Positions 604-64,000 of a DNA stretch of 64,000 nt are shown one piece after another. Within the stretch, counting starts at the first letter, position 1; the number at the start of each line of letters is the position of its first letter. The notes beneath the pieces are model-generated. The model saw only the letters and a program-made list of their open reading frames with translations, was not told where the DNA came from and did no database searches. A program made the position numbers and the translations under genes. This stretch comes from Rhizophagus irregularis (Eukaryota > Glomeromycota > Glomeromycetes > Glomerales > Glomeraceae): the NCBI RefSeq assembly GCF_026210795.1, contig NC_089432.1:3782001-3846000 (forward strand), read 5' to 3'.

Positions 604-1507
604 AATTATGTATCACGTGATTAACGTGCAAACCAGCCCCGTTTTTTTTTAAACTTTAACAAACCTTTTTCCTTTCTCAATTTCCCTTCCCCGTCTTTTT
701 CTCTTCATCTTGTTTCACTCTCTCTAATAAAAATCTTTAGCAGAACGTTTAGCAACATTTTGAAATTTTCCTTATTAGACAAAAATCATTACATTATGCA
801 ATGAAAATTAAGAGTTCATAACGATTTTTTTTTTAAAAAAGAAATAAGTATATTATAACTTAAATGACAAAATAACTTCGGTAATAAAATGGATTGAGAA
901 AAATCTAGAGAATGAGTATATTCATTATTTTAAATATGATGAATTTAAAATCGATGAAGAAGAAATTGGTAGAGGAAGGGGTCCGGAAAGATTTTTTTTC
1001 TTTTTTTTCATCTTTATTTTTTAATAAACGATTCTAATGGTTCATTTTTTTTCTTTCTTTAGATGGTTCTTTCAAGTTACTTTGGGAGACATTTTGGTAA
1101 AGTTTTTTATTTATTTCTTCCATCTTTTAACAAACGGTTCCTAACAGTTCATTTCTTTCTCTTTTTAGGCGGTTCTTTTGTATTTCTTGTGGTAAGTTAA
1201 ATTTTTTTTCTTTCTTTTTTTTATTTAACAAAACGTTAACTGGTGGTTAACTAAAATATTTTCTTGTCTTTTTCTTTTTTTTAGATGGTCAGGCCTTTGG
1301 ACGTGTGAAATTTCCAACGGTTGGTTTCTTTTACTTTTTTAAATTCTTTTGAATTAAATTTTTTTATTTTGGTAAGATGTTAACTATCATTTCATTTTCT
1401 TTCTTTGTTTTTAGACAGGTCAGGCCTTTGGATGTGTGAAATTTTCAACGGCCACGCACGTTATACTAGAAAGGTATGATGGCAGAGGAATTGTTGCGAA
1501 AATTTAA
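604..1507 (+). pseudogene. Decayed kinase first exon followed by intron-like/mini-exon array
   Basis: From 889 the frame reads WIEKNLENEYIHYFKYDEF, the N-terminal signature of the large TKL-like kinase family of Rhizophagus. It leads to a glycine-rich segment (EEEIGRGRG) and then breaks. Four short exon-like blocks follow, separated by pyrimidine-rich spacers ending in TTTAG and starting GTAAG or GTAAAG. They read DGSFKLLWETFW, GGSFVFLV, GQAFGRVKFPT and TGQAFGCVKFST, each resembling a kinase glycine loop (GxxF(G)xV). The last block stays open to a stop at 1505-1507. The expected ATG is ATA here, whereas the inverted copy at 7.0 kb keeps ATG. About 280 bp of shared upstream sequence includes TATCACGTGATT. 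No HRD or DFG motif follows, so it cannot make a kinase. Treated as a pseudogene; a spliced non-kinase transcript is possible. Confidence 0.6.
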
Positions 1508-2345: not shown

Positions 2346-4091
2346 CCAGCTGGATGCCCGCGTTTCACGCGGGCCTGGCTAATTAAAATTATGAAAATCA
2401 GATACCTTTCTGCTAAGCTGTTATATAAAGTCTAGAATGGTTATTAGCATTAATTTGGAATTTTGTGGTAAATAGGGAATCATAGGCTGTGTATGGCAAG
2501 TGATTTTACAGCGCTCACAATCCTTGCGAAATATTTTAAAAATTATTACATATTAATAGGAATATTAATCATTACAAAGTATAACAGATAATGAGTGTCA
2601 GTATAAATAATATGCAATACATTTTTTATTATAATAGTTATTATAATAGTTATAGTGGTTCATTAGGAAGCCGGCAAACCTAAAAAACATTCAAAGAATC
2701 ATTAGACCTAAAAAAAGGTACCAAAATTTAAAAAAAGAAAAGAAAAAATGATTAGTAATTATGAAAAAGAATTTTTTTAAAAAAATTAAAAATATAATTC
2801 AAACTAACCTTCACTCTGAAAGGTACCTCCAAAACCTAAAAAAGAGAAAAGGGTTGTTTCCTACAAAAAAAAAGTTAAATTAGGGACATTTTTTAAAGTT
2901 TAAAATTCATTTTCAGAACTTACCCAAAGTTCTCAAAAATTGATCATCTACTAAAAAAAAGAAAAGAATGAAACATCAATAATGTTTTGTTAAAGAAATA
3001 ATGTTAGGAAAATATTATTTACCAAAATTTACATCTGTCCAAGGTGTTGCAGTACTGTCTAAACTACAAAATATAGAACACAAAATGTTAGTTTTAATGT
3101 TTCATTTCATTAAAAAATAAAAAAAATTAATGAAAAACACTTACAAATTCCATGTCTGGAAAAAGCCAAAGAACCACCCTACAGAATGCAAAAATAAACA
3201 TTAGTAAACATTTTGTTAACTAACATTATGTTAAAAGAAGCATTTTAAAAGAACCTACTAAAATTTCACATGTCCAGAATCACGAACAAACCATATAAAA
3301 AAGGAAGAAACATGATGTTAGTAATGTTTTGATAAAAAATTTTTCAAAGAAAAAATATTCACCACAATTCTGTTCGTGTATAAATTATTCCTTATTCAGT
3401 TATCTAAAAAAATGAAAAATCAAACTGTTAGAAATGTTTGATTAAAAGAAATGTATTAAATCCTTCCTTACCAAATTTCCACGCGTCTGAAGACAAACCA
3501 AGAAAACCACTGATACCTAAAAAAAGAAAGCTTTATTTTTTGGGTTTTTTTTTGGTTTTTTGCATAGTTATTAAATACCTGTAATTGCTGTTATTAGAAA
3601 TGTTCAATTCCCCTGGTAAAATCCTACTTTGAGAGCTGTGCAGGCATTAGAAATTAAAAATTAAATGTAAAAGAAAAGGTGTATTTTTTTTAAAAGAAAG
3701 GGATTTTTTTTCATCATATGGGAAAATTCAGAAACTGAAAAATATTTTTTTTTAAAAAAAAAAAGAAAGAAAATGTGTCGTATGGGAAAATCCAAAAAAC
3801 TTTTTTTTTTAAAAAAAAACAATGATGATTGCTCAATAAATTTTTTATATTTTATATTACAATTAGTACTAATTGCTATAATTTGTTTTTACGCCAATCA
3901 TTTATGCAGCCTAATTCAAGGATTAGAGCTGCTAATCAATGTCAAATGATGCGCCACTCCGAATCCCTATATAAAAATCTGTAGCACAGGGCGCAGACAC
4001 ATGATGATGGACGATCCAATTTAAATCCGCCTTTTTATGCAGGGTAGTCTTAACGTCACGGTCGCACAATGCTTTTTTTTATAGATATAGA
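2346..4091 (-). mobile_element. Non-autonomous Helitron candidate carrying a mini-exon array
   Basis: On the minus strand the element starts A|TCTATATCTATA at 4091 (a 5' TC after an A). It ends with a GC-rich hairpin (GCCCGCG, 5-nt loop, CGCGGGC) six bases before CTGG|T at 2346. Hairpin, CTRR end and A/T insertion site are the standard Helitron signature. No Rep/helicase frame is present, so it is non-autonomous. The inside holds the intron-like array described separately and a GC-richer block at 3900-4070. The hairpin is palindromic and a plus-strand reading (CTAA|T at 2377-2381) is possible, but only the minus-strand reading has a matching 5' TC end. Confidence 0.55.
2690..3525 (-). repeat. 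Intron-like spacer/mini-exon array inside the Helitron
   Basis: Read on the minus strand, short exon-like blocks alternate with 80-120-bp AT-rich spacers that start GTAAG, GTTAG or GTAAA and end in T-rich TTTAG or TTGTAG. Several blocks encode glycine-loop-like peptides (for example GGSLAFSRHGI and GFGGTFQSEG). The spacers contain small palindromes centred on GTTAG, like those of the arrays at 0.9, 6.6 and 61.4 kb, but more degraded. Probably a captured and decayed relative of the kinase-array pseudogenes. Confidence 0.55.
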
Positions 4092-4117
4092 TTATTATTA
4101 ATATATAATATGAATAT

Positions 4118-4465
4118 GGGATCTGTCCAAAATCCTGAAACTCAAAATCCTGAAGGTGCATTATCCCAACACACTAAATCCCGAAATGTCAAAATCCTGA
4201 CTTGTCTAAATCCTGAAACGTCAAAATCCCAAATTGTCATAATCCCGTATTTATAATCCTGACCCATAATCATATTGATTTTCTTTCTTTTATTAATAAA
4301 TTTCAAGATTTTCATTTCGGTCAGTATTTGAATTTCGGGATTATGATGTGTCGGACTTATGAAATGTCAGGATTATGGCAATTCTGGATTTTGACATTTC
4401 GGGATTTAGAGTGTCGGGATAATGTACCTTCAGGATTTCGAGTTTCAGGATTTCGTACCAAACCC
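4118..4465. repeat. Foldback element with AAATCCTGA-type subrepeats
   Basis: The left arm (4118-4262) and right arm (about 4320-4465) are inverted copies of one another. Each is built from short repeats of the type AAATCCYGAAA and GTCAAAATCC. There is no coding frame. This is a non-autonomous foldback/MITE of unknown superfamily; the ends are approximately GGGATCTG / GTACCAAACCC. Confidence 0.7.
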
Positions 4466-5790: not shown

Positions 5791-6100
5791 ATTATTTTTA
5801 AACAACGTTGACACTGCGCCAAAATCACGTGATTACCGTCGTTTGTGCGTCATTATTGAACGTCATACGAACGCGTTGCAAAGGTGGGAAAATGTATCAC
5901 CATTACTATACCTATTTTACTATTGTAATTTATTTTTTACAACATTGTAAACACACTTTATTTGCATATATATTTAATAAAGCAAACTATGTTATATATT
6001 AGTACATTACTAGTTACTACGCTAGCTAACTATTAAATTATACATTATTATGCATAAAAGTAAAATTATTTAATAAACATGTTTCGCTAAAGGTAATTTG
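5791..6100. other. Intergenic, no feature seen
   Basis: AT-rich, with one GC-richer patch near 5820-5890 including TCACGTGATT. The short reading frame there shows no family resemblance. Confidence 0.3.
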
Positions 6101-7283
6101 AAAAAGTCCAAAAAAATGAAACTTTTCCTTAAACGAAATAATCCGAAGAAAGGGAGCCTCCTACAAAAATTCTACACGTTTAAGGACTTCAAAAAGCAAT
6201 CTGTCCAATAACAAGAAGGTTTGAAGAAGCTGAGATCTAAAAAAAAAATAAAATAAACATTAAAAATGTTTCTAATTAAAGAAAACAATAAAAAGTAAGT
6301 TTTGCAAAGAAACTTACCGTCTCAAATCTATCAAAGCCCTTCTATAACTACAAAAAAAAAGTAAAAAGTAAGGATGTTTCCAAACATAACTTACTATTTC
6401 AAGATTCCAATACCCTATTCCGCTATTCGAAACTTTACAGAACCTATAAGTAAATAATTTTTCGCGATGAGGGAGCATTTTAAGTTCTTGTATCCGCTCT
6501 TCTGTATCCAGAATAAAAGTCAAATTTTCGCACTGAAGCCTCACATGTCAAAAAGTCTGGACATCTGAGAAGTATTGAAATGTAGAACCTAGAAAAAGAC
6601 ATGACTGTTTAAAAAAAGAAAAAAGATGATGAAACGTTAGTTAAACGTTTCGTTAAATAAAAATGAAAAAAATTTAACTTACCGCAAGAAATACAAAAGA
6701 ACCGCCTAAAAAGATAAAGAAATGGACTGTTAGGAACCGTTTGTTAAAAAATGTAAGAAATAAATAAAAAATTTTACCAAATGTCTTCCAAAGTAACTTG
6801 AAAGAACTGAACCATCTAAAGAAAGAAAAAAATGAACCATTAGAACCGTTCATTAAAAAAATAAAGATGAAAAAAAATGAAAAAAATCTTACCAGAATCC
6901 TGATATCCCTTTTTCTACTTATTTCTTCTTCATCAATTTAAATTCATCATATTTAAAATAACGAATATACTCATTCTCTAGCTTTTTCTCAATCCATTTT
7001 TTTACCGAAGTCATTTTGTCATTTAAGTTATAATATACTTATTTTTTTTTTAAGAAAAAAAATTTCATCATTATGAACTCTTAATTTTCATTGCATAATG
7101 CAATGATTTTGTCTAATAAAGAAAATATCAAAATGTTGCTGCTAAAGATTTTATTAAACTGAAGAAGGTGAAACAAAGAGGAAGAGAAAAGAAGGGTGAG
7201 ATTGTGAGAAAGGAAAAAGGTTTAAAAAAAAAAGTGGCTGATCTGTTAAAATTGTCACATTAATCACGTGATACATAATTAGC
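6100..7283 (-). pseudogene. Inverted copy of the decayed kinase exon plus mini-exon array
   Basis: On the minus strand this matches 604-1300 from the upstream CACGTG segment (near 7265) to the mini-exon GGTTCTTTTGTATTTCTTG. Here an ATG is present at about 7011: MTSVKKWIEKKLENEYIRYF, then FKYDEFK, then a frameshift (a base lost in AAATTGATG) leading to a stop. Downstream mini-exons encode GGSFVFL-like and other peptides. Spacers begin GTAAG and end TTTAG or TTTGTAG and hold palindromes around ACGTTAG. No catalytic kinase motifs remain. The copy faces the one at 604-1507, so the pair is convergent. Confidence 0.6.
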
Positions 7284-49512: not shown

Positions 49513-51172
49513 CACTCCCGCGCCAAAAGTTTAGGACCACCCAATAAATTTTTAAAAAAATGGTTTTTTTTAACCAACTAATATTTTAATAAACTATAAA
49601 AAGTAATTTATAATTACTTTAATGGATAAAGAACAATTTTTTATTATTAGTTAAAAATGTAAAAATAAATTATCGGTAATTTAGTTATCCAGCATTTCGC
49701 AAAGTCACGTGACTAATGTTTACATCACGTGATTTTTTGTGATGAAGGAAAAAAATTCGTAAAATGAATAAAATATAAAAACTTTTTATTAAACCTCTTG
49801 TTATGTATAATAAAAAAAAAAATTCTGGTCCATAACTTCACAAAATTAAAAGTTAAGATAATGAAAAAAAATTTTAATAAAAAATGCTTAATTTTTGGTA
49901 AAAATGTAAACAAAAAAACCAATTTACCGAAACTAACTTTATAAAAATATAATTAAAACATTCCTCAATATCTTGTGGGATATCCACGAGCTTTTATAAC
50001 TGCCTCAATTCTACGGTTCATGCTCTCCACAAGCTTTTGGTAGACCTCACATGAAATTTCTGACCAACATTCTTGAAGAAGTTCCTCCAATTCTCCTAAA
50101 TTTTTAGGATGATTTTGCTTTGCTCTTATACGCCTCTCAAGCTCATCCCAAAGATGCTCAATGGGATTGAAAGGTTCGGCTCTGCCCCGGCCATGATAGC
50201 AAATTTATTCCCATTTCTTCACAGAACTCTCTTGTTCTTGCACTTGTATGAATCGGTGCATTATCTTGTTGGAACAAATAATCACCATTTTCTTCTTCAA
50301 ATCTTTCCAAGAAAGGGATCACGTGATAGCCAAGTATCTCTTCTATATACCTTTGACTATTAACTCGACCATCAATTCTTACCAAAGGGCCCAATCCAAA
50401 CCATGTAAAACACCCCCACATCATGACTCCACCTCCACCATGCTTCATGGTTGGAACAAGGTAATTAATATCATATTTTTCTTTTGAAGACGCCAAACCC
50501 GAATTTTTCCATCATTCTGGAACATAGTAAATCGAGACTCATCACTCCATACAATTTTTTTCCAATCATTTATAGTCCATAAGCGTCTTTCACGAGCCCA
50601 ATTTAAGCGTATTTTTCGATTACACTCACTAACACAGGGTTTTCTTAAGGCTGCACAACTATTATATCCCATTCCATACAATGTTCGTTGTATGGTGCGC
50701 CTACCTACATCATTTCCAGTGGATTCCATAAAAATTTTTCTAATTTTTTCTTCAGGTTCACGTCGGTTTTTATTAATAATAGCTTTAAGATGCCGTTTAT
50801 CCCGTTCAGTTAGTTTCTTAGGACAACCACTTCTGGGAGCGACAGTAACAGCACCAGTTTCACGATATTTTGCTATTATATTATGAATTGTAGTTTTTCC
50901 ATAGCCTGTTTTATTTGAAATAGCTCTTTCTGAATCACCGGCTTCATAAAAACCGATAACTTTTCCACGTTCAAAATCCGTTAGTTCTCTTTTTTTAACC
51001 ATTTTGCTTTTAAACAAAAAAAAAAGCTGCTAAAATTTTGTGTAATTATCATTACTAATCAATAAATAACGTAAATAGTTTTTATTTATGTTACACAAAT
51101 GCGTAATTATTACTGTTTAGGTGTTGTTTATGGCGATCATAAAGGTGGTCCTAAACTTTTGGCGCGGGAGTG
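49513..51172 (-). mobile_element. Tc1-like DNA transposon, 1660 bp
   Basis: Terminal inverted repeats CACTCCCGCGCCAAAAGT then TTAGGACCACC at 49513 and the complement ending GGCGCGGGAGTG at 51172. TA target duplication is present on both sides (49511-49512, 51173-51174). It encodes one transposase (minus strand) with two frameshifts, so this copy is defective, though the ends are intact and could be mobilised in trans. It interrupts the palindromic repeat and is therefore younger than it. Confidence 0.95.
49965..51017 (-). pseudogene. Tc1/mariner transposase (DD34E), frameshifted
   Basis: Three open pieces in order make a full-length transposase of about 345 residues. 51017-50470: N-terminal paired helix-turn-helix domains (ELTDFERGKVIGFYEAGDSE, AVTVAPRSGCPKKLTERD) to WSDESRF with the first catalytic Asp. 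50480-50165: YDINYLVPTMKHGGGGVMMW, and DYLFQQDNAPIHT with the second Asp. To 49965: NPIEHLWDELERRIRAKQNH with the Glu, ending IKARGYPTRY. The second Asp to Glu spacing is 34 residues (DD34E), typical of Tc1. The first break is a lost A in the AAAGAAAAA tract near 50484; the second is near SPDLNP, around 50180. An alternative start at 51002 (MVKKREL) is equally plausible. Confidence 0.92.
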
Positions 51173-51654
51173 TATGTACCTGATATGTGTAGTATTAATG
51201 CAGAAAATCGGGCACCTGATATGTGTAAGATATGTGTAAATATATATATCGTATACGTATCGGGTACCGATATGTATATGATATGTAAATGATATGTATA
51301 TGATATATATATTTACACATATCTTACACATATCGGGTACCCAATTTTCTGCATTAATACTACACATATCGGGTACATATCTGATACATATCTGCTACCC
51401 GATATACCACTGGTCAAAATCAATTCTATCGGGTACATATCAGGCACCTATATATCGGTGGCTAATCAGATAAATATCGGGTATTTTTACATATCGGGTA
51501 CCCGATAGCTAAGCTATTAGTCACTGATATTGTATATCGGGCATTGATCTATCTTACACATATCAGGTACCCGATATGTAAATTTTAATACGTAAGATTT
51601 TTATTTTGTACAACGTACTGTATTATATATAATCCGTTTCAACTAAAATTTTTT

Positions 51655-54600
51655 ATTTAAATTCATTTTTTAGATAATTTTTATAAATAATTTTCTAAGA
51701 AATTTTAAAAGTCCATTTGAATAATATTTAATAGGAATTTTATTTAAGAAACTTTTAGATAGATTTTTTTGAGAAATTTTTTAAGAGTCCGTTTGGAAAA
51801 ATTATTTTTTTAACTAAGAGGATCATTTAAAGCATTTTTGATAGAGAATTTTCTAAAGATTTGTTTGGAGAGATTATTTTTGAGAATTTTTTAACTAAAG
51901 GGACCGTTTGGAACATTTTTTGATAGAGAATTTTCTAAGAATTCATTTGGGAAATGGTTTTTTGAGAATTTTTTTAACTAAAAGGATCATTTGGGCATTT
52001 TTTGATTGAGAATTTTCTAAGAGTTCGTTTAGGGAAATTATTTTTTGAATTTTTTAATTAAGGGGATCGTTTAGGGCATTTTTTGATTGAGAATTTTCTA
52101 AGAGTTCGTTTAGAGAGATTATTTTTGAGAATTTTTTAACCAAAGGGACCGTTGGAATATTTTTTGATAGAGAATTTTTTTGATAGAGAATTTTCTAAAA
52201 GTTTGTTTGGAAAAATTATTTTTTGAGAATTTTTTAACTGAAGGTATCATTTGATAGAGAAATTTCTAAGAGTTCGTTTAGGAAAATTATTTTTTGTATT
52301 TTTTAATTAAGGGGATCGCTTAGGACATTTTTGATAGATAATTTTCTAATAATTCGTTTGGAGAGATTGTTTTTGAGAATTTTTTAATTAAAGGGAACGT
52401 TTGGAACATTTTTGATAGAGAATTTTCTAAGAATTTGTTTGGGAAATAGGGTTTCAAGAATTTTTTAACTAAAAAGATCATTTAGGGCATTTTTTGATTG
52501 AGAATTTTCTAAGAGTTCGTTTAGGGAAATTATTTTTTGAATTTTTTAATTAAGGGGATCGTTTAGGGCATTTTTTGATTGAGAATTTTCTGAGTTCGTT
52601 TAGGGAAATTATTTTTTGAATTTTTTAATTAAGGGGATCGTTTAGGGCATTTTTTGATTGAGAATTTTCTAAGAGTTCATTTAGGGAGATTATTTTTGAG
52701 AATTTTTTAACCAAAGGGACCATTGGAACATTTTTTGATAGAGAATTTTCTAAGAGTTTGTTTGGAAAAATTATTTTTTGAGAATTTTTTAACTGAAGGT
52801 ATCATTTGATAGAGAAATTTCTAAAAGTTCATTTAGGAAAATTATTTTTTGTATTTTTTAATTAAAGGGATCGCTTAGGGCATTTTTGATAAAGAATTTT
52901 CTAATGATTCGTTTGGAGAGATTGTTTTTGAGAATTTTTTAACTAAAGGGAATGTTTGGAACATTTTTGATAGAGAATTTTCTAAGAATTCGTTTAGAAA
53001 ATGGTTTTTCGAGAATTTTTTAACTAAAAGGATTATTTAGGGCATTTTTTGATTGAGAATTTTCTAAGAGTTCGTTTAGGGAAATTATTTTTTGTATTTT
53101 TTAATTAAGGGGATTGTTTAGGGCATTTTTTGATAGAGAATTTTCTAAGGATTCATTTGGAGAGATTATTTTTGAGAATTTTTAAGAGTTTGTTTGGGAA
53201 ATGGTTTTTTGAGAATTTTTTAACTTAAAGGATCATTTAGAGCATTTTTGATTGAGAATTTTCTAAGAATTCGTTTAGGGAGATTATTTTTTGTATTTTT
53301 TAATTAAGGGGATCGCTTAGGGTATTTTTGATAGAGAATTTTCTAAGAATTTGTTTGGAAAATGGTTTTTTGAGAATTTTTTAACTAAAAGGATCATTTA
53401 GGGCATTTTTGATAGAGAATTTTCTAAGAGTTCGTTTGGGGAAATTATTTTTTGAATTTTTTAATTAAGGGGATCGTTTAGGGCATTTTTTGATAGAGAA
53501 TTTTCTAATGATTCGTTTGGAGAGATTATTTTTGAGAATTTTTAAGAGTTTGTTTGGGAAATGGTTTTTTGAGAATTTTTTAACTTAAAGGATCATTTAG
53601 AGCATTTTTGATTGAGAATTTTCTAAGAGTTCGTTTAGGGAGATTATTTTTTGTATTTTTTAATTAAGGGGATCGCTTAGGGCATTTTTGATAGAGAATT
53701 TTCTAATGATTCATTTGAAGAGATTGTTTTTGAGAATTTTTTAACTAAAGGGAACGTTTGGAACATTTTTGATAGAGAATTTTCTAAGAATTTGTTTGGG
53801 AAATGGTTTTTTGAGAATTTTTTAACTAAAAGGATCATTTAGGGCATTTTTGATAGAGAATTTTCTAAGAGTTCGTTTGGAGAAATTATTTTTTGAATTT
53901 TTTAATTAAGGGGATCGTTTAGGGCATTTTTTGATAGAGAATTTTCTAATGATTCGTTTGGAGAGATTATTTTTGAGAATTTTTAAGAGTTTGTTTGGGA
54001 AATGGTTTTTTGAGAATTTTTTAACTTAAAGAATCATTTAAAGCATTTTTGATTGAGAATTTTCTAAGAGTTCGTTTAGGGAGATTATTTTTTGTATTTT
54101 TTAATTAAGGGGATCGCTTAGGGCATTTTTGATAGAGAATTTTCTAATGATTCGTTTGGAGAGATTGTTTTTGAGAATTTTTTAACTAAAGGGAACGTTT
54201 GGAATATTTTTGATAGAGAATTTTCTAAGAATTTGTTTGGGAAATGGTTTTTTAAGAATTTTTTAACTAAAAGGATCATTTAGGGCATTTTTGATAGAGA
54301 ATTTTCTAAGAGTTCGTTTGGGGAAATTATTTTTTGTATTTTTTAATTAAGGGGATCACTTAGGGCATTTTTGATAGAAAATTTTCTAATGATTCGTTTG
54401 AAGAGATTGTTTTTGGGAATTTTTTAACTAAAGGGAACGTTTGGAACATTTTTGATAGAAAATTTTAAGAATTTGTTTGGGAAATAGTTTTTTGAGAATT
54501 TTTTAACTAAAGGATAATTTAGGGTATTTTTGATAGAGAATTTTCTAAGAGTTCGTTTAGGGAAATTATTTTTTGTATTTTTTAATTAAGGAGATCGTTT

Positions 54601-55565
54601 AAGGCATTTTTTGATTGAGAATTTTCTAAGAGTTCGTTTAGGGAAATTATTTTTGTATTTTTTAATTAAGGGGATCGCTTAGGGCATTTTTGATAGAGAA
54701 TTTTCTAATGATTCATTTGGAGAGATTGTTTTTGAGAATTTTTTAACTAAAGGGAACGTTTGGAACATTTTTGATAGAGAATTTTCTAAGAATTTGTTTG
54801 GGAAATGGTTTTTCGAAAATTTTTTAACTAAAAGGATTATTTAGGGCATTTTTTGATTGAGAATTTTCTAAGAGTTCGTTTAGGGAAATTATTTTTTGAA
54901 TTTTTTAATTAAGGGGATCGTTTAGGGCATTTTTTGATAGAGAATTTTCTAAGGATTCGTTTGGAAAGATTATTTTTGAGAATTTTTTAACTAAAGGGAA
55001 CGTTTGGAACATTTTTGATAGTGAATTTTCTAAGAGTTCGTTTGGGAAATAGTTTTTTGAGAATTTTTTAATTAAAAGGATCATTTTTAGGGCATTTTTT
55101 GATAGAGAATTTTCTAAGGATTCATTTGGGGAGATTATTTTGAGAATTTTTTAACCAAGGGATCGTTTGAAACATTTTTGAGAGAATTTTCTAAGAGTTC
55201 GTTTGGGGAGATTATTTTTAAGAATTTTTTAACCAAAGGGATCGTTTGGGACATTTTTTGACAGAAAATTTCTAGGAGTTCATTTGGGGAAATTATTTTT
55301 TGGGATTTTTTTAACTAAAGGGATCATTTAGGACATTTTATTTTTAATAAAGAAATTTCTAAGAATTCATTTGGAAGATTTTTTGAGATTTTTTTAATAA
55401 ATCTTCTAAGGGTTCATTTGAAGAAATTTTTTAAAAAAGTTTTTTAACTAGAAGGGTCATTTCAAATATTTTTTTGATGAGAAATTTTCTAAAGGTTCAT
55501 TTGGAAAGATTTTTTTTTTTGATAATTTTTTTAATCGAAAGGGTCATTTGGATTGAGAAATTTTT
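51655..55565. repeat. Satellite of about 80-bp units, 3.9 kb, with higher-order pattern
   Basis: About 47 units built on GAGAATTTTCTAAGAGTTCG, TTTGGGGAAATTATTTTTTG and ATTTTTTAACTAAAGGGATC. The period is about 80-83 bp (measured 82 bp between 51840 and 51922). Three recurring variants follow each other in order: A ('AAGAGTTCG..TTAATTAAGGGGATCG'), B ('AATGATTCG..GGGAACG') and C ('AAGAATTTG..AAATGGTTTTTT'), giving a composite period of about 240 bp in the 52.2-55.0-kb part. Units at both edges are more diverged. No frame stays open. Confidence 0.9.
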
Positions 55566-56692: not shown

Positions 56693-57290
56693 ACAGTCAA
56701 CTCTCTTTATAGTCACACATATGGGACAGTCCATATTTGGTGATTATGAGCAAACAGTCTTATGACTTTATCTTTTATTATAAAATTTAAACGAAAAGTA
56801 CAATGATCAAATTGAACAATATTACAAAATATAGAAAATTAAACAAAAAATAAAAAGAACTAGCTTCACGATTCATACAAGTAAAGAAATCTAAACAAAA
56901 TAAAATTAAGTAAAGAAAAACTAAACTATTACAGAAATGCATACCCCATCTTTACCTGAAGGCCAGTGTGAGTCAACTATCAAGCATGTCCTAAGATCCA
57001 ATCCATTACCAAAAAGAAATCCTAAGTAGAGGCTGAACTGTTAAGCGGCACCAAAAATCCAAATGTGAAATCTAAGATTCTCACGGATTATATAAGAGGA
57101 AACCCAAGAAACCCAGGAATCCAAGGAAACTGTCGCCAAGGAAGGTGTCAAAGAGTCAAAAGGAATGTTAGAGGAGGGACACAGGTTGAAGGGGCACCAT
57201 TGTCCAAAATTCAAAAAATGCAAATTCCCCATTTTTCTGGAAAATGGTGGAAAATTGTGGAAAATGCTACATTACGCTGAGCAATTTTTT
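56693..57290 (-). mobile_element. Possible truncated pogo-like element end
   Basis: CAGTCAACTCTCTTTATAGT at 56695 resembles pogo-type terminal repeats. No matching end is found to the right within the window's next few kb. On the minus strand 57041-57232 is open (63 codons ending ..ENLRFHIWIFGAA) and less AT-rich, possibly the last piece of a transposase. A plus-strand frame overlaps it. Low confidence. Confidence 0.35.
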
Positions 57291-57795
57291 GGAATAATAT
57301 TGTTACAACATTGTCCGATTTAGCAAATCTTATGAAATTTTGGGAAAATGCTACATTACACCTCAAATGTAACATTTCGTAACATTGTTATAACATTGTC
57401 AATTAAATCAAATTTTGCTTTTTTTTTGTCAAATGGTGCATTTTTATAAAAATTCCGCATTTTGCCACCAATGTAATATCATTGTAACAACATTTCATAA
57501 CATTGTTATAACATTGTCAATTAAAATCAAATTTTGCTTTTTTTTTGTCAAATATTCCGATTTTCTGCCAAATGGTACATTTTTATGAAAATTCCGCATT
57601 TTGCCACCAATGTAATATCATTGTAACAACATTTCATAACATTGTTATAACATTGTCAATTAAAATCAAATTTTGCTTTTTTTTTGTCAAATATTCTGAT
57701 TTTCTGCCAAATGGTATATTTTTTATGAAAATTCCGCATTTTTTAGCAAATTTTATGCAAATTTCATGTTTTTTTGGTCAAATGTTACATTTTTC
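57291..57795. repeat. Tandem repeat of about 120-148-bp units
   Basis: Units share AACATTGTTATAACATTGTC, AAATCAAATTTTGC, TTTTTTTTGTCAAAT and GAAAATTCCGCATTTTGCC. Three recognisable copies start near 57378, 57502 and 57638, with weaker material at both sides. An open plus-strand frame across it is a by-product. Confidence 0.7.
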
Positions 57796-58327
57796 CACAG
57801 GTCGAAAAGTGAAAAATCAGGCATCAATCAGTCACCAATCGGTCACCAATCAGGTACCTGATTGGTGACCGATTGGTGCCTGATTGGCATTTTCGCCAAA
57901 TACCAAATCACCAATCAGGCAGTTTGCTAACTTTTGATCCAGTGATCAGAAAAAGATGAAATATAGCTCATTGGAATCGTCTCAACAAGACGAATCTAAT
58001 GGTAGTAAAATCGCATCTTTAGGATTAATACTTGATGAGAAATTAAGTAAAATATAAAAATGAAAATGTATTATTTATATTTTATTTAATATTTTATTAA
58101 CTATCAATCCTAGAGATGCGATTTTACTACCATTAGATTCGTCTTGTTGAGACGATTCCAATGAGCTATATTTCATCTTTTTCTGATCACTGGATCAAAA
58201 GTTAGTAAACTGCCTGATTGGTGACTCGTATTTCTTAAACGAAAATATAATCAGGCACCAATCAGTCACCAATCAGCTACCTGATTGGTGACCGATTGGT
58301 GCCTGATTTTTCACTTTTTGACCTGTG
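57796..58327. mobile_element. CACTA-type foldback MITE with TTC target duplication
   Basis: Ends CACAGGTCGAAAAGTG and CACTTTTTGACCTGTG are inverted and flanked by TTC on each side (57793-57795, 58328-58330). CAC..GTG ends with a 3-bp duplication fit the CACTA/EnSpm superfamily. Subterminal CACCAATCAGG/CCTGATTGGTG repeats occur in both orientations. A second, inner inverted pair of more than 110 bp (57905-58030 with 58105-58215, for example CAGTGATCAGAAAAAGATG) lets almost the whole element fold. Non-coding. Confidence 0.85.
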
Positions 58328-58526: not shown

Positions 58527-60247
58527 TTAAATGTGAAATTTTCTATTTAACGGTAAAATGGCCAAGTATTCAGTACGTTTGTATTTAAATTTTGCTGGAA
58601 CAAATCTACCTAATATGTGATGAACTGGAATTATACTATTAACCGAAGAATTAAAAAACTCCTTTTTCCAAAGTTCCGGATCATTCGTAAAATCATCAGA
58701 ATCTTCGCTGGAAAAAAAAAATCTGATGTTTGCAGTCGCAGCGGGTTTATACCAATTTACAAAAGCCAAATAATATTCCGTCAGACCATTTGGAAGATGA
58801 ACTGTATGTTTGAAATAGAATTGTACCTGGCCAGGATATGTGTCTATATCATTTTCACGTTGTTCTATAAAACGTGCTAAGATATAAGAGCTTCTAATAT
58901 ACCTTTTGGATAATATTGACCCAAAATATTCTGCACTGATGCGCAATCTGCCACATTGTGTGATATTTCCAGTTACAGCAATGTAATTTTCAGTTGATGA
59001 AGAAGGATCTAACCGTGGTCGGCTAAAATTATATTCTTCATAAGCGTGATTGTAGTAATCAACTAGTAAATCCAAAATATCATCCGGTAATATGACATTC
59101 AATTTTATCGGACTTAAAAGTTCTCCAGGATATTCTTCCGTTCCTGTTGCCCCGCCAGAAACCAGCTTTTCAGATATATCTAAAAATGCCTGTAATTCCT
59201 CACTTTCGAGAGATTCATTTTCGTTATCGTCAGTTGTATCATCATTTAAATCAAGTATTTGAAAAATGGCCTGATGATTTAGAGCCAATGTATTGAATCT
59301 TCGTTCAATTTGAGAACTCTGCATCATAAATCGCATAATTTCCGGTTCAATTTTTCGTCTACTATTAGGTAAACTCCCTGTATAATTGTAAAATCGTAAG
59401 TAATAATTCTGAATAATTTGAATAATATTATTGTAAATACCAACCAAGAATTCCATTCATCCTTTCAAAGGAGAAATACCAAAATGAGTAAAGAGGACCG
59501 TAATCTTTACAACATTTGTTCAAGTGTAATGAAAGATGTAAATTTGGTGTTATTGAAACTTCTCCGTAATTCGTTTTGATAAGTTTCAAAATTTCAATTA
59601 AATGTTCATGTGCGTCATCTAAATTTTTGATTGTAACAATCCTTCAGACTAATATAGAACAAGCTTGGCTGAAATGTACTAAGATTTTCCGATCTTCTTG
59701 GTCCAAAAAATCCCAAAGAACAACTCTGGCATAAATCAGGAAAAAATTTTTCCATTCGTTAGCCGTTAAATTAGAAAATCCTTCCCCAATATCTATTTTA
59801 TGAGGAATTCGACCGATTTCTGATGGTGGATGAATATTGTTCATGTTTTTTTGAATTTTCGTCAGATCATCCATATTTATTTTACCATGTCCTAACCAAA
59901 GTTGTTTTACGATAAATGATGCAATTCCTATAAATAAATTATGCATCGGGTCCACAGGTAAAAATCGTATCAGATCGAAATAAGACAAACGGAGCATTTC
60001 TGACCATCTCGCGTGATATTGCTTCGCATGTCTTTTTCTAGCTTCGTTGCTTTTACATTTTCTCCATTCCAAAGCCATTTCTCGATAACTATTCACGCTT
60101 TTAGCAACAAACCATTCATTAATAACATCCATGCCACTAAAATTTCTATTTCTTGCAACCTTTAAGCATCTGTGACAGCTTACATTGGCTGAATAATGGC
60201 CACATAATTTTCTAGCAGCTGGTATATCGCAGCAACAAGCAATTACT
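58527..60247 (-). pseudogene. CACTA (EnSpm)-type transposase, C-terminal part, broken
   Basis: Minus-strand order: IACCCDIPAARKLCGHYSAN, CHRCLKV, GMDVINEWF, YFDLIRFLPVDPMHNLFIGI, TANEWKNFFLIYARVVLWDF, ACSILV, then an in-frame TGA at about 59647. The same frame continues RIVTIKNLDDAHEHLIEILK, PNLHLSLHLNKCCKDYGPLY, SFWYFSFERMNGILG. A GT..AG intron of 67 bp (59444-59378) then joins to SLPNSRRKIEPEIMRF and on to IIPVHHILGRFVPAKFKYKR and ILPLNRKFHI. 'DPMHNLF', 'DYGP.YSFW.FSFERxNGILG' and the zinc-knuckle-like CxxC/CHRC part are hallmarks of CACTA transposases. The N-terminal catalytic part is missing because another CACAGGTCGAA terminus starts at 60248. One stop codon and the N-terminal truncation make it dead. 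Confidence 0.85.
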
Positions 60248-60470
60248 CACAGGTCGAACAGATGTCATTGTCGCAAAATTTGCCTGGAATTTTTCTGGCA
60301 AATTGAGAATTATCCCGATAAATTGGGGTAAATTGTGTTACAATTTTGGGATAATGGAGGACTTACAATTTGGCAAATTTTGTCAAAATGGCAGAATTCT
60401 TACAGAATTCCTAATTCAAATGTTGAGAAATTTTTCAGTAAATTATCATTAATTGTGGGAAATTTTAGGT
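60248..60470 (+). mobile_element. CACTA-like terminus CACAGGTCGAAC
   Basis: The sequence at 60248 repeats the first 11 bases of the MITE at 57796 and cuts the transposase gene. Its partner end was not found before 61.4 kb. The DNA that follows is AT-rich with weak tandem structure. Confidence 0.45.
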
Positions 60471-60900
60471 AAATTTTTAGTAATTTTATGTAAATTGTAG
60501 TGAATTTAGTCAAATTTTTAGTAATTTTATGTAAACGTAATGCAAATTGTGGTGAATTTAGTCAAATTTTTAGTAATTTTATGTAAACGTATTGTAAATT
60601 GTGTAAATTTTAGGCAAATTTTTAGTAATTTTATGTAAACGTAATGCAAATTGTAGTAAATTTAGTCAAATTTTTAGTAATTTTATGTAAACGTAATGCA
60701 AATTGTGGTGAATTTAGTCAAATTTTTAGTAATTTTATGCAAACGTAATGCAAATTGTGGTAAATTGTAGTGTATTTTTAGTAATGTTATATAAATTGTT
60801 GAAAATTTAGGTGAGTTTTTCAGCAATGTTGTGCAAACGTAATACAAATTGTGGAAAATTGTGGTGAATTTTGCATTTTTTCGGTAAATGTTAGCTAAAC
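60471..60900. repeat. Tandem repeat of about 52-bp units
   Basis: Six to seven units of TTTTTAGTAATTTTATGTAA, ACGTAATGCAAATTGTGG and TGAATTTAGTCAAA, with some shortened. No coding frame. Confidence 0.8.
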
Positions 60901-60989
60901 TTTTGATAATTTAGTGAAATTTAGGATAATTTTGGACAATTGAGTGAAAAATGTTTTACTGATTTTGTACAATTGAGTGTAAACAGTAT

Positions 60990-61215
60990 AAACACAACAT
61001 TTTCGGAGACAATTTAGTGAAATTTTGCAATAATTTCGGACAATTGAGTGAAATTTTGCAATAATTTCGGACAATTGAGTGAAATTTTGCAATAATTTCG
61101 GACAATTGAGTGAAATTTTGCAATAATTTCGGACAATTGAGTGAAATTTTGCAATAATTTCAGACAATTGAGTGAAATTTAGTAATAATTTTAAACAATT
61201 TAGTGCAAATACCAT
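60990..61215. repeat. Tandem repeat of 31-bp units
   Basis: About six units of ACAATTGAGTGAAATTTTGC followed by AATAATTTCGG, nearly identical between 61040 and 61150 and diverged at both ends. The open minus-strand frame here exists because 31-bp units rotate through frames without a stop. Confidence 0.9.
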
Positions 61216-61399
61216 GACAATTTAAAACACTGGTTTAATAATTTTACATAATTTATTACAATATTATTTATTAATAAATGCACAATTATTATTTAACGAT
61301 GAGAATCTATATTAATCTATATTCATCAGATATCCAATAATCCATGGGTAATCCGCACATCTAATTCATTCATGTATCTCCGATGCCAAAGTAGAAGCT
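61216..61399. other. Spacer before the intron-like array
   Basis: AT-rich, then a GC-richer 60 bp (61330-61400: ATCCATGGGTAATCCGCACATC). On the minus strand this would be downstream of the last array unit; no recognisable domain is seen. Confidence 0.3.
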
Positions 61400-63175
61400 G
61401 GTAAAAACCTACAAAAAAGAAAGTAAAGAAACGTTAGTTAACGTTTCTTAAAAAAAAATTAATAAAAATTAAGTTTCACAACCAATGTTGCGAAACTTAC
61501 CGGTTCGTTTTGATTTCCATTATCCAAACGTCCGAAACCTACAAAAAGTAAAAAAGAAACGTTAGGTAATGTTTCTTTTAAAAAAAAAGAACAAAAATTA
61601 AGTTTCGCAATGTAACATTGCGAAACTTACCGGTCGTTTCATTCATTCTAACATCCGGAACCTACAAAAAGTAAAAAAGAAACGTTAATTAACATTTTTT
61701 TTAATAAAAAAAAACAAAAATTAAGTTTCGCAATGTAACATTGCGAAACTTACCGGTCATTTCATTCATTCTAACATCCGGAACCTACAAAAAGTAAAAA
61801 AGAAATGTTAGTTAACGTTTCTTTTAATAAAAAAACAAAAATTAAGTTTCGCAATGTAACATTGCGAAACTTACCGGTCATTTCATTCATTCTAACGTCC
61901 GGAACCTACAAAAAGTAAAAAAGAAACGTTAATATAAACGTTTCTTTTAATAAAAAAACAAAAATTAAGTTTCGCAATGTAACATTGCGAAACTTACCGG
62001 TCGTTTCATTCATTCTAACGTCCGGAACCTACAAAATTAAAAGAAAGAAACGTTTAGTATCGTTTCTTTAAAAAAAATTAATAAAAATTGTTTCGCAACA
62101 CAATGTTGCAAAACTTACCGGTTCGTTTCGAAGTTCATTATCCAAACGTCTGGAATCTACAAAAATTAAAAGAAAGAAACGTTTAGTATCGTTTCTTTAA
62201 AAAAAAATAATTAAAAAAATAAGTTTCGCAATACAATATTGCGAAACTCACCGGTTCGTTTCAATTTCTATTATCCAAACGTCCGGAACCTACAAAAAGT
62301 AAAAGAAACGTACGAAATAAAAGAAACGTACGTTAGTATCATTTCTTTAAAAAAAAACATAATTAAAATTAAGTTTCGCAACAATTGTTGCAAAACTTAC
62401 CGGTTCGTTTCGAGTTTCAAACGTCTGGAACCTACAAAAAAAAAGAAAGAAACGTTAGTTAACGTTTCTTTTAATAAAAAAAATCAATAAATTAAGTTTC
62501 GCAACGATTCGTTGCAAAACTCACCGGTTCATTTCATCCAAACGTCCGGAACCTACAAAAAGAAGGAAAGAAATGTTAGTTAACGTTTCTTTTAATAAAA
62601 AAAAAATTTAACAAAAAAAAGAAAATATTACCTTTCTTCCAAAGTCCGGGTCGTAATTTCGTCTGGCGTTCCTACAAAAAGAAGAAAGGAAACGTTAGAA
62701 ACGTTTCCTAAAAGAAATTAAAAAAAAGTAAGTTTTGAACATGAAACTTACCATTTCACTTTTCGAAGTTGAAGACCTACACAAAAGAAAAATAGGAAAC
62801 GTTAGAAACGTTTCCTTACAAAAAAAGAATTAAAAAAATTTTTTTTAAAAAAGTTTCGAAGCGAACGCTTCAAAACTTACCATTTTCGTTTCCTCGTTTC
62901 CTAAGTCAAAAATACCGAAAGACCTAAAAAAAAATAAAGGATCGTTAAAAACGATCCTTATAAAAGCAAAAAAAAAAAAAATTTATTTTAAAGTTTCAAA
63001 GCGAAACGCTTCGAAACTTACCATAATTTCAGTAGTCAAAACATCAAAAATCCTACAAAAAAGAAAGAAAGGAAACGTTAGAAACGTTTCCTTACAACAA
63101 AGAATTAAAAAAAAAATTTAAATTTAAAAAAGTTTCGAAGCGTTTCGCTTCGAAACTTACCATTGTTTTTCTGAA
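61400..63175 (-). repeat. Array of about 14 double-hairpin intron-like units with mini-exons
   Basis: Read on the minus strand, each unit of about 120-145 bp holds a mini-exon of 28-38 bp (for example GTTCCGGACGTT..ACGACCG). This is followed by an 80-100-bp intron-like segment starting GTAAGTTTCG and ending TTTTTGTAG. Starts (plus-strand CTTACC or CTCACC) lie near 61498, 61627, 61750, 61870, 61992, 62115, 62250, 62398, 62520, 62630, 62756, 62877, 63018 and 63158. A first hairpin begins at the GTAAG itself (arms GTTTCGCAATG / CATTGCGAAAC). A second, 30-40 bp further on, has arms like AAGAAACGTTA / TAACGTTTCTT. Mini-exon lengths of 31 and 38 are not multiples of three, so a single frame does not run through. 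The right-hand units (62.6-63.2 kb) are more diverged. It may be a spliced non-coding transcript or a decayed gene related to the kinase-array family. Confidence 0.85.
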
Positions 63176-63515
63176 AGACGGTTCCGGGAAGGGGAAAGAG
63201 AATGGGGAAGGAGTGGGAGGAAAAAGGGAAGGGGAAGGGTGGAAGAAGAGGAAGGGGAGAAGAGGAGAGAAAGAGGGAAGGGAAGAGAGAAAGAGGGAAG
63301 GGGAAGGCGAGAGAAAAAGGGAAGGGAAGGGAAAGGAGAAAGAGGGAAGGGAGGAAGGTGAAAGAAAGAGGGAAGGGGAAGGTGAAAGAAAGAGAAAGGG
63401 GAAGGGGAAAGGGGAAGGAAAGAAAGAAAGGAAGAAAGAAAGAGGAAAGGGGAAGGTGAAAGAAAGAGGGAAGGGGAAAGGCGAAAGAAAGAAGAGGTAA
63501 AGGCCGTGAGAAAAA
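63176..63515. repeat. GGAAGGGGAAAG purine-rich tract
   Basis: About 330 bp almost entirely of A and G on the plus strand, in degenerate GGGAAGGGGAAG and GAAAGAAAGAGGGAAGG units. Arg/Lys/Glu/Gly-rich open frames are artefacts. Such tracts can form triplex or quadruplex-like structures and often lie in promoters; here it sits just upstream of the minus-strand array. Confidence 0.85.
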
Positions 63516-63519
63516 AAAA

Positions 63520-63640
63520 ATTAAGCTTTTGCTAAAAAAGCTTAATTTTTTTTTTCGTTATACCGCAGCTGAAGCTGCAGTAATTATTAAGTAATATCAC
63601 GTGACGCACGTGATATATAATTTTATATAAATAGGGCTTT
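63520..63640. promoter_or_regulatory. Palindrome cluster with TATAAATA box
   Basis: Three palindromes in a row: TTAAGCTTTT..AAAAGCTTAA (63521-63545), GCAGCTGAAGCTGC (63565-63578) and ATATCACGTGACGCACGTGATAT with two CACGTG-type halves (63594-63616). TATATAAATAGGG follows at about 63623-63636. CACGTG also lies upstream of the kinase-array copies at 0.6 and 7.27 kb. The TATA box points to a plus-strand start near 63665, or the region may serve the minus-strand array. Confidence 0.45.
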
Positions 63641-64000
63641 CCCCCGCCCCGGAATTTTTTTTTTTATTTTAATAATTTTAAATAGATGTATATATATGCT
63701 TATATATACATATATATATATCTATTAACTAATACTTTACGAAAAGCCCTTCCTCTGTAAACAGGTAGAGGCCATAAAGTACCTATAGGGGGAGAGCCAT
63801 TGCTGCTTCCTCCACCTGTTTATAGTGATAAAAAGAGGGAGTCTTCAGTGGTAAGGTTTAGTACTAAATTAAACATCATAACACATCGTGTTGATACATT
63901 GTTTATATTAACAATGTGATTTAATGTTAAATAATTCATTTAGAATATAAATATTATAAATTTAATAATGTTTGTAATTTACAAATAAATAAAAATAAAA
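63641..64000 (+). other. GC-richer leader-like stretch with long hairpin
   Basis: CTTTCCCCCGCCCCGG follows the TATA box. CTGTAAACAGGTAGAGG (63755-63771) can pair at 15 of 17 positions with CCTCCACCTGTTTATAG (63809-63825). No open frame of note before the window ends. It could be a leader, a structured RNA or a small foldback element. Confidence 0.35.

Follow-up and report, generated by a model that had tools for sequence, protein, structure and literature searches.

The window analysed here, a stretch of 64,000 nucleotides from Rhizophagus irregularis (contig NC_089432.1, positions 3,782,001 to 3,846,000), contains on its minus strand, from 63160 to 61409, a series of 14 consecutive intron-like units (GTRAGT...TAG) with 13 mini-exons between them (Table 1). 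The units are 79-111 nt long, and the mini-exons measure, in order, 31, 43, 25, 40, 28, 31, 38, 38, 31, 31, 31, 31 and 38 nt. A tandem run of about 14 such units on this strand had been described in an earlier note on this DNA, and the coordinates confirm all 14; the mini-exons it reported are likewise present, although they range over 25-43 nt and not 28-38 bp. For the unit ends, which it gave as GTAAG and TTTGTAG, a coordinate check yielded the acceptor TAG in 14 of 14 units, but donors of three kinds: GTAAGT in 11, GTGAGT in two and GTAATA in one. The stem-arm sequences that it quoted are all found in their places.

Each unit is built around two hairpins. The left arm of hairpin 1 starts at donor positions +1 to +5, mostly +2 or +3, so that most of the donor is covered; its outer arm letters are almost invariant, whereas the inner letters differ among units yet remain paired. 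The earlier note had every donor within such a hairpin, which is true of 13 of the 14 units: unit 62631-62553 has none, and that at 62751-62672 has a shorter version. Hairpin 2 ends just upstream of the acceptor and bears at its loop a branch-point-like CTAAC, CTGAC, TTAAC or similar. The array looks transcript-like in other respects as well, with a pyrimidine-rich leader ahead of it and AATAAA downstream of the last exon; among the 33 loci examined, the motif sought was located in 16 copies, and each of these 16 has AATAAA within 260 nt.

With a covariance model of the unit, trained in part on introns of the window, the window yields 39 matches at E<=1. The 13 strong array introns score 62.8-87.5 bits and the unit without hairpin 1 follows at 34.1 bits, the remaining matches being antisense shadows of the array (at most 39.5 bits) and weaker ones elsewhere in the window. 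A chance origin of the array units is excluded. In Rfam, the whole window has no match at gathering scores, and the ten matches obtained for 60200-64000 lie far below the family thresholds.

Table 1. Features of the array, its carrier and the surrounding element, in window numbering.
Feature	Position	Strand	Basis
CACTA-like non-autonomous transposon carrying the array; continues to C4:3846929, 4,682 bp in total	60248..64000	-	termini and 3-bp flanks
3-bp target site duplication ACT (+ strand), matched just past C4:3846929	60245..60247	.	
Array of 14 intron-like units	61409..63160	-	sequence, covariance model, coordinate check
Array units 1-5	63160-63053, 63021-62924, 62880-62777, 62751-62672, 62631-62553	-	
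Array units 6-10	62524-62432, 62400-62290, 62251-62157, 62118-62029, 61997-61906	-	
Array units 11-14	61874-61785, 61753-61662, 61630-61539, 61500-61409	-	
Example unit: GTAAG donor, hairpin 1 AAGTTTCGCAATG/CATTGCGAAACTT, T-rich linker, hairpin 2 (CTAAC at loop), acceptor TTTTTGTAG	61539..61630	-	
Sole unit without donor hairpin: GTAATA donor, hairpin 2 present, 34.1 bits	62553..62631	-	
Presumed 3' end of first exon (...AAAAACAATG), preceded by a long pyrimidine tract	63161..63200	-	
CT-rich tract upstream of the array, present in other copies also	63220..63520	-	
Last exon and AATAAA signals	61240..61408	-	
Subterminal minisatellites of the array element	60460..61210	-	
Outer element's TNP2-like transposase gene, 3' part, split by the insertion; 5' part beyond 64929	58527..60246	-	
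Outer-element terminal region (CACAGGTTGAAGGGGCACC...), resembling the far end of the array element at 83-87%	57180..57793	+	

The carrier element and its surroundings

The array is the interior of a CACTA/EnSpm-like DNA transposon, a carrier that the earlier note had not foreseen. The inverted termini of this array element, CACAGGTCGAA... and ...TTCGACCTGTG, lie at 60248 and C4:3846929 and have the same 3-bp flank at both ends; the terminal repeat begins with CAC, its letters being CACAG, not CACTA. Matching 3-bp flanks occur in 14 of the 15 copies of which both ends were seen, L030 being the exception (the 5' ends of L009 and L019 lie outside the fetched slices, and these two are not among the 15). 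For 12 of 16 other copies, the listed homology ends no more than 5 bp from 60248, and in 14 of the 16 copies fetched first it extends upstream past 64000. We refer to the element as non-autonomous because no transposase gene was seen inside its 4.7 kb in the window. In the window's own assembly (146.7 Mb, 32 contigs), a search with the unit gave at least 345 matches (40 of 242 candidates scored) and one with the 3' exon at least 40 (40 of 58 candidates scored); merged, the two lists put the array element at 51 or more genomic places. A strict donor hairpin occurs at least once in 31 of the 32 further loci fetched (L006-L021, L023-L038), with none in L036.

Between these copies, CpG-to-TpG/CpA changes are frequent in exons and stems alike, a pattern that would fit cytosine methylation of the array element. 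Two of them contain a further intron type, in the older subfamily (L023, ~3800-4150; L025, ~3900-4010), in which a hairpin extends across the exon-intron junction (ATTTCGAAG and GTATACTTCGAAAT on its two sides); these introns likewise have a branch-point hairpin. Upstream of the array, a conserved stretch at 63735-63860 folds barely better than its shuffles (z -1.3; 21 of 200 as good).

The array element is itself inserted within the TNP2-like transposase gene of a second, outer element. PF02992 (Pfam) matches only the 5' part of this gene, at 28.3 bits against a cutoff of 28.6, and the two gene pieces inside the window have no credible Pfam match. Among the matches listed (150 of 463 candidates scored), the gene has relatives at 97% identity; for one relative of the outer element, on C20 (L039, with an 813-aa open frame), no such donor hairpin was found in the 8.5 kb fetched. 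Because the two elements have similar termini, the TNP2-like transposase supplied by related elements, the outer one included, probably mobilises the array element.

Further repeats lie nearby. A foldback element at 57796-58327, of which 57826-58308 is an 89% palindrome, is bounded by CACAGGTC and GACCTGTG and nested in the outer element; it is possibly a small relative with the same termini. A partial Tc1/mariner-type transposase frame with HTH_Tnp_Tc3_2 (50445-51029, minus strand) adjoins a foldback palindrome of 88% at 51173-51379, and at 51806-55401 units of ~81 bp are repeated in tandem over 3.6 kb, with a strong excess of G over C on the plus strand.

Paired changes and splice signals

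The pairing of the stems is evident both in folding energy and in how the two arms change together. The 997 nt from 62402 to 61406 fold at -312.8 kcal/mol, as compared with -197.8 for 20 shuffles (z -14.7). Selected by its outer anchors alone, hairpin 1 occurs at 287 places spread over 32 of the 33 examined loci, with 122 distinct inner sequences; these form Watson-Crick pairs at a fraction of 0.794 with their own partner and of 0.583 with swapped ones (z 12.4). For hairpin 2, anchored on the branch point, 115 distinct arm pairs of this element reach -6.59 kcal/mol, against -5.39 when swapped (z -7.8), and 60 distinct ones from other arrays -2.13 against -0.83 (z -6.5).

A second test used 62 non-redundant introns, selected from among 315 candidates for their donor and acceptor patterns, a length of 76-112 and an identity below 90%, and was run also on 58, with four odd rows removed beforehand. 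Over all 62, the paired fraction is 0.919 in hairpin 1 and 0.856 in hairpin 2 (shuffled, 0.849 and 0.821), and the cells with changes on both sides number 82 and 33 (shuffled, 35.1 and 12.2), values which none of 500 shuffles reached for either hairpin. The compensatory changes that the earlier note had described in both stems are thereby borne out. In 26 of 58 introns, hand-chosen for clean alignment so that their 95.3% pairing is flattering, 13 of 23 pairs have changed on both sides, with 55 double-change cells against 16.5 in shuffles and 4-12 in slid registers. As the shuffle and swap tests count related units as independent, their z values overstate the number of events; the matched changes in both stems exceed the shuffled and the swapped controls.

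A third candidate, an exon hairpin between mini-exon ends that look complementary by eye (GGTT...AACC), was not borne out, the ends pairing at -3.34 kcal/mol with their own partner and at -3.31 with swapped ones (z -0.3). The same ends, over 292 distinct exons, pair better than shuffled letters (-3.34 vs -2.53 kcal/mol). By group, the swap test gave z -0.2 in this element and z -2.3 in 72 exons of other arrays; it is weak where exons resemble each other.

The units also carry a full set of signals of U2-type introns, namely a GTRAGT donor, a YTRAY branch point and a YAG acceptor at normal spacing. At hairpin donors located without requiring GT, GT is present in 276 of 285, and the computed stem leaves out donor position +1 in 253 of 282. 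Downstream of hairpin 2, the AG met first belongs to a TAG in 192 of 198 cases and is 8-19 nt away in 196 of 198. Of the 198 hairpin-2 loops of this element, 185 contain a strict YTRAY, ten YTRAA and three neither, with other loop letters varying; the last letter of YTRAY is favoured by the search, which fixed the first arm letter after the loop. The preservation of these signals is our strongest reason for thinking that the units function as RNA, and we consider it likely that they are transcribed and spliced.

In the computed fold the donor is closed. Its mean probability of being unpaired is 0.175 in 13 window introns, compared with 0.402 when all of the intron but the donor is shuffled; for 80 of 315 introns of this element the values are 0.185 and 0.353, and for 66 of 74 introns of other arrays, where closure is weaker, 0.304 and 0.361. 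A closed donor usually slows U1. A stem of 13 bp over the donor should hinder U1, so that splicing is not an obvious reason for keeping the fold.

Donor-hairpin units across the genome

The donor hairpin is not confined to the array element. The pattern GTRAGTTTYRN{8,22}YRAAACTT has 933 + 996 = 1,929 matches in the genome, as opposed to 12 with the right arm scrambled and 8 for the whole pattern reversed, and 281 of the 1,929 fall in the 33 array-element loci examined. A donor of this type combined with different complementary arms (GTRAGTAA...TTACTT) gave 46 matches, of which 25 represent one other repeat; donor hairpins therefore look like one lineage and not like a general rule for the genome's introns. 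Like introner-like elements, to which the earlier note had likened the units, they are thus numerous, sequence-similar introns dispersed in one genome, with inverted repeats or a stable fold; a class of this extent had not been anticipated.

Of the 100 places that head the list, all from contig 1, 86 fall in same-strand clusters of two or more, where random placement would give 1.6. Together the 100 make up 37 clusters and singles, with spacings near 115, 230 and 345 bp, and on a rough extrapolation from these 100 places the whole genome would hold about 700 clusters or singles. The clustering, mostly at ~115 bp or multiples, agrees with the earlier proposal that units multiply in tandem together with their mini-exon. 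Among 90 distinct contig-1 hairpins, 77 of them long enough, inner positions 3-6 pair at 0.737 with their own partner and at 0.468 with swapped ones (z 12.1).

Seventeen loci from the contig-1 list were fetched, of which ten were read fully, five partly and two (L057, L064) by script only. In those read, the mini-exons and introns are built in the same way, and the stems of some are looser. The strict pattern lists ten of the 17 singly, and at least eight of these adjoin looser units as judged by eye. Of what the earlier note proposed to look for in the genome, further arrays were found, whereas for solo units inside genes the 17 loci, a small sample taken without gene models, hold no convincing case. 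Carriage by a transposon is shown only for the branch of the donor-hairpin units described above.

Three more such stretches with branch-point hairpins lie in the window itself, at 700-1500 (plus strand), 2600-3600 (minus) and 6100-7000 (minus). In the last of these, a donor hairpin lies at 6317-6295 and one unit is 78% identical to the array unit at 62758-62672. The loci at 700-1500 (plus) and 6100-7100 (minus) are related, 85% alike over ~300 bp, and in each of them mini-exons and introns bearing branch-point hairpins come after a first exon, WIEKNLENEYIHYFKYDEFKIDEEEIGRGRG, which we take to be kinase-like; the 6100-7100 locus has at least 66 genome matches, including itself and the 700-1500 locus (40 of 134 candidates scored). 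In the run of mini-exons and introns at 2600-3600, the branch-point hairpins have a different stem, for example ATCAAAC/GTTTGAT.

Interpretation and relation to known systems

We propose that each unit is a U2-type spliceosomal intron with a non-coding mini-exon, and that the units belong to a genome-wide family of introner-like splicing modules. The family would grow as its exon-intron unit is duplicated in tandem and, in this branch at least, would spread as the passenger of a larger element. As for the fold, its likeliest role would be the local packing of each intron: the donor would stay shut until the spliceosome opens it, and hairpin 2 would present the branch point at its loop. Packed in this way, the many near-identical donors and acceptors of one transcript might avoid pairing with each other. 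The fold may gate splicing, block cross-pairing between identical neighbouring units, or do both; of these, we favour local packing. We put the probability of this explanation as a whole, transposon-borne introner-like splicing modules with stems kept on the pre-RNA and local packing, at roughly 0.6. One part of it, namely that in the active lineage selection acting on the folded pre-RNA has maintained the stems, we regard with some reserve as slightly more likely than not.

The stems could instead arise at the level of DNA, if template switching in replication or repair perfected near-palindromes (quasipalindrome correction) and slippage enlarged the arrays; no selection on an RNA fold would then be needed, and splicing could still occur. 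The unit is rich in inverted repeats, its T-rich linkers invite slippage, and even the mini-exon ends pair above shuffled letters, but these ends do not covary (in a test of low power among similar exons), and such a process alone would not preserve GT, YTRAY and TAG. The kinds of mismatch bear on the same question. In inserted copies, G.U is not clearly preferred to A.C: 55 classes of single-arm events leave G.U in 29 cases and A.C in 26, with 29 and 25 in exon controls. An apparent RNA signature in the raw G.U/A.C count of hairpin 1 disappeared for single-arm changes once these were collapsed to distinct events, and hairpin 2 in this element has an opposite lean (C-to-T 29, G-to-A 43, not deduplicated). 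The embedded mismatches of the contig-1 sample, with 45 G.U against 23 A.C and related sequences counted separately, lean towards the RNA level. The 20 classes of two-arm events in inserted copies comprise nine matched, eight with only G.U, two with only A.C, the latter two kinds being too few to decide, and one mixed. With nine of 20 matched, no strong correction is visible there, nor is the hairpin-templated copying that the earlier note had suggested as one possible cause. CpG decay hits both arms in these copies; they mostly decay, with no strong correction at the level of DNA and no clear filter at that of RNA. Given this share of matched two-arm events, pairing was probably set earlier, in the active lineage, where the matched changes between unit classes probably arose. 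Taken together, we judge a DNA-level origin of the stems unlikely.

The remaining alternatives concern what the array is. It might be a set of palindromic binding sites for the transposase or another DNA-binding dimer, in which the splice-like motifs are incidental. CACTA elements do carry subterminal repeat arrays, and the palindromes share GAAACG/CGTTTC cores; this array, however, is internal and separate subterminal repeats are present, its inner stem letters vary yet stay paired, unlike a site that is read by sequence, the CACAGGT motif occurs in just two of the 17 fetched hairpin loci (in the stretches fetched), and the splice signals are preserved. We regard this as very unlikely. About as unlikely is a protein-coding gene of mini-exons captured by the transposon, for instance a repeat effector resembling SP7. 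Before the first intron lies an exon that ends in AATG, a 3' exon has AATAAA, and SP7-like genes of R. irregularis encode imperfect repeats according to the relevant passages of PMC11333574, but the frame from that ATG ends after three codons, none of the 13 internal mini-exons has a length divisible by 3, and the longest stop-free run of the array spliced in order (615 nt) is 66 aa, which 121 of 500 shuffles equalled. The spliced frames are thus at chance level, no open reading frame with repeat units was found in the window array, and the array shows no coding signal. On its strand, 17 other loci likewise had no convincing protein frame (longest stop-free run 126 aa, without a family search). 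Finally, the units might be classical introner-like elements, inserted singly into ordinary genes and only secondarily forming arrays. Fungal introner-like elements have inverted repeats or stable folds as well, in the account given in PMC8469720, and in the window such units follow the presumably kinase-like first exon; however, most of the first 100 places are clustered and the 17 loci yielded no solo unit in a convincing coding gene, which makes this reading quite improbable.

Going beyond the introner-like splicing modules that we prefer, one may tentatively ask whether the units form a new, satellite-like class of selfish element, although we find this doubtful. Its amplified unit would be a whole splicing module, from mini-exon through donor and branch-point hairpins to acceptor, present in perhaps 700 clusters or singles, rendered harmless by removing itself from non-coding transcripts, with an RNA structure selected to gate splicing, and able to pass among transposon families and loci that resemble genes.

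Should the units be spliced, a single genome would hold as many as about two thousand related introns whose stems covary, a natural mutant series for how the folding of pre-RNA at donor and branch point tunes splicing in vivo. Their multiplication would proceed by tandem growth with the mini-exon and subsequent carriage by a DNA transposon, which differs from single insertion into genes. Two-thirds of the transposable elements of R. irregularis are unclassified in the account of PMC11075540, and such arrays may form part of them.

Several known systems resemble the array in part. In titles and abstract openings of the open-access literature, we recognised no description of such arrays. With the CACTA/CMC/EnSpm and Plavaka elements of the same fungus, as treated in the main text of PMC11075540, the array element shares superfamily and abundance; CMC-EnSpm and Plavaka are reported there among the superfamilies with more expressed families in colonised tissue, and the terms 'intron' and 'tandem' are absent from that main text. 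The SP7-like effector genes (PMC11333574) are likewise scattered paralogues with repeats in this fungus, but they encode protein, whereas the array apparently does not. The introners derived from DNA transposons in PMC9860276, the main text of which lacks the terms 'Rhizophagus' and 'tandem', also tie DNA transposons to intron gain; there the transposon becomes an intron, whereas here a row of introns is carried inside the transposon.

Further comparisons, drawn from passages of PMC8469720, are with two groups of proliferating fungal introns. The introner-like elements of Dothideomycetes (Torriani 2011, van der Burgt 2012, as cited in PMC8469720) are, as described there, many similar U2-type introns per genome with inverted repeats or stable predicted folds, as are the units described here. 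They are, however, integrated in gene exons, whereas our units consist of an intron and a mini-exon in tandem, are apparently non-coding and have two covarying stems, at the donor and at the branch point. The symmetrical stwintrons and cropped sister introns of Hypoxylaceae likewise proliferate and have internal symmetry, but there one long terminal inverted repeat spans the intron in place of two local hairpins, and DNA transposition is excluded in that paper, whereas a DNA transposon is the carrier here. On these passages, the array differs from fungal introner-like elements and stwintrons in its exon-intron unit repeated in tandem, in a pair of separate stems that both covary, and in having a transposon as carrier.
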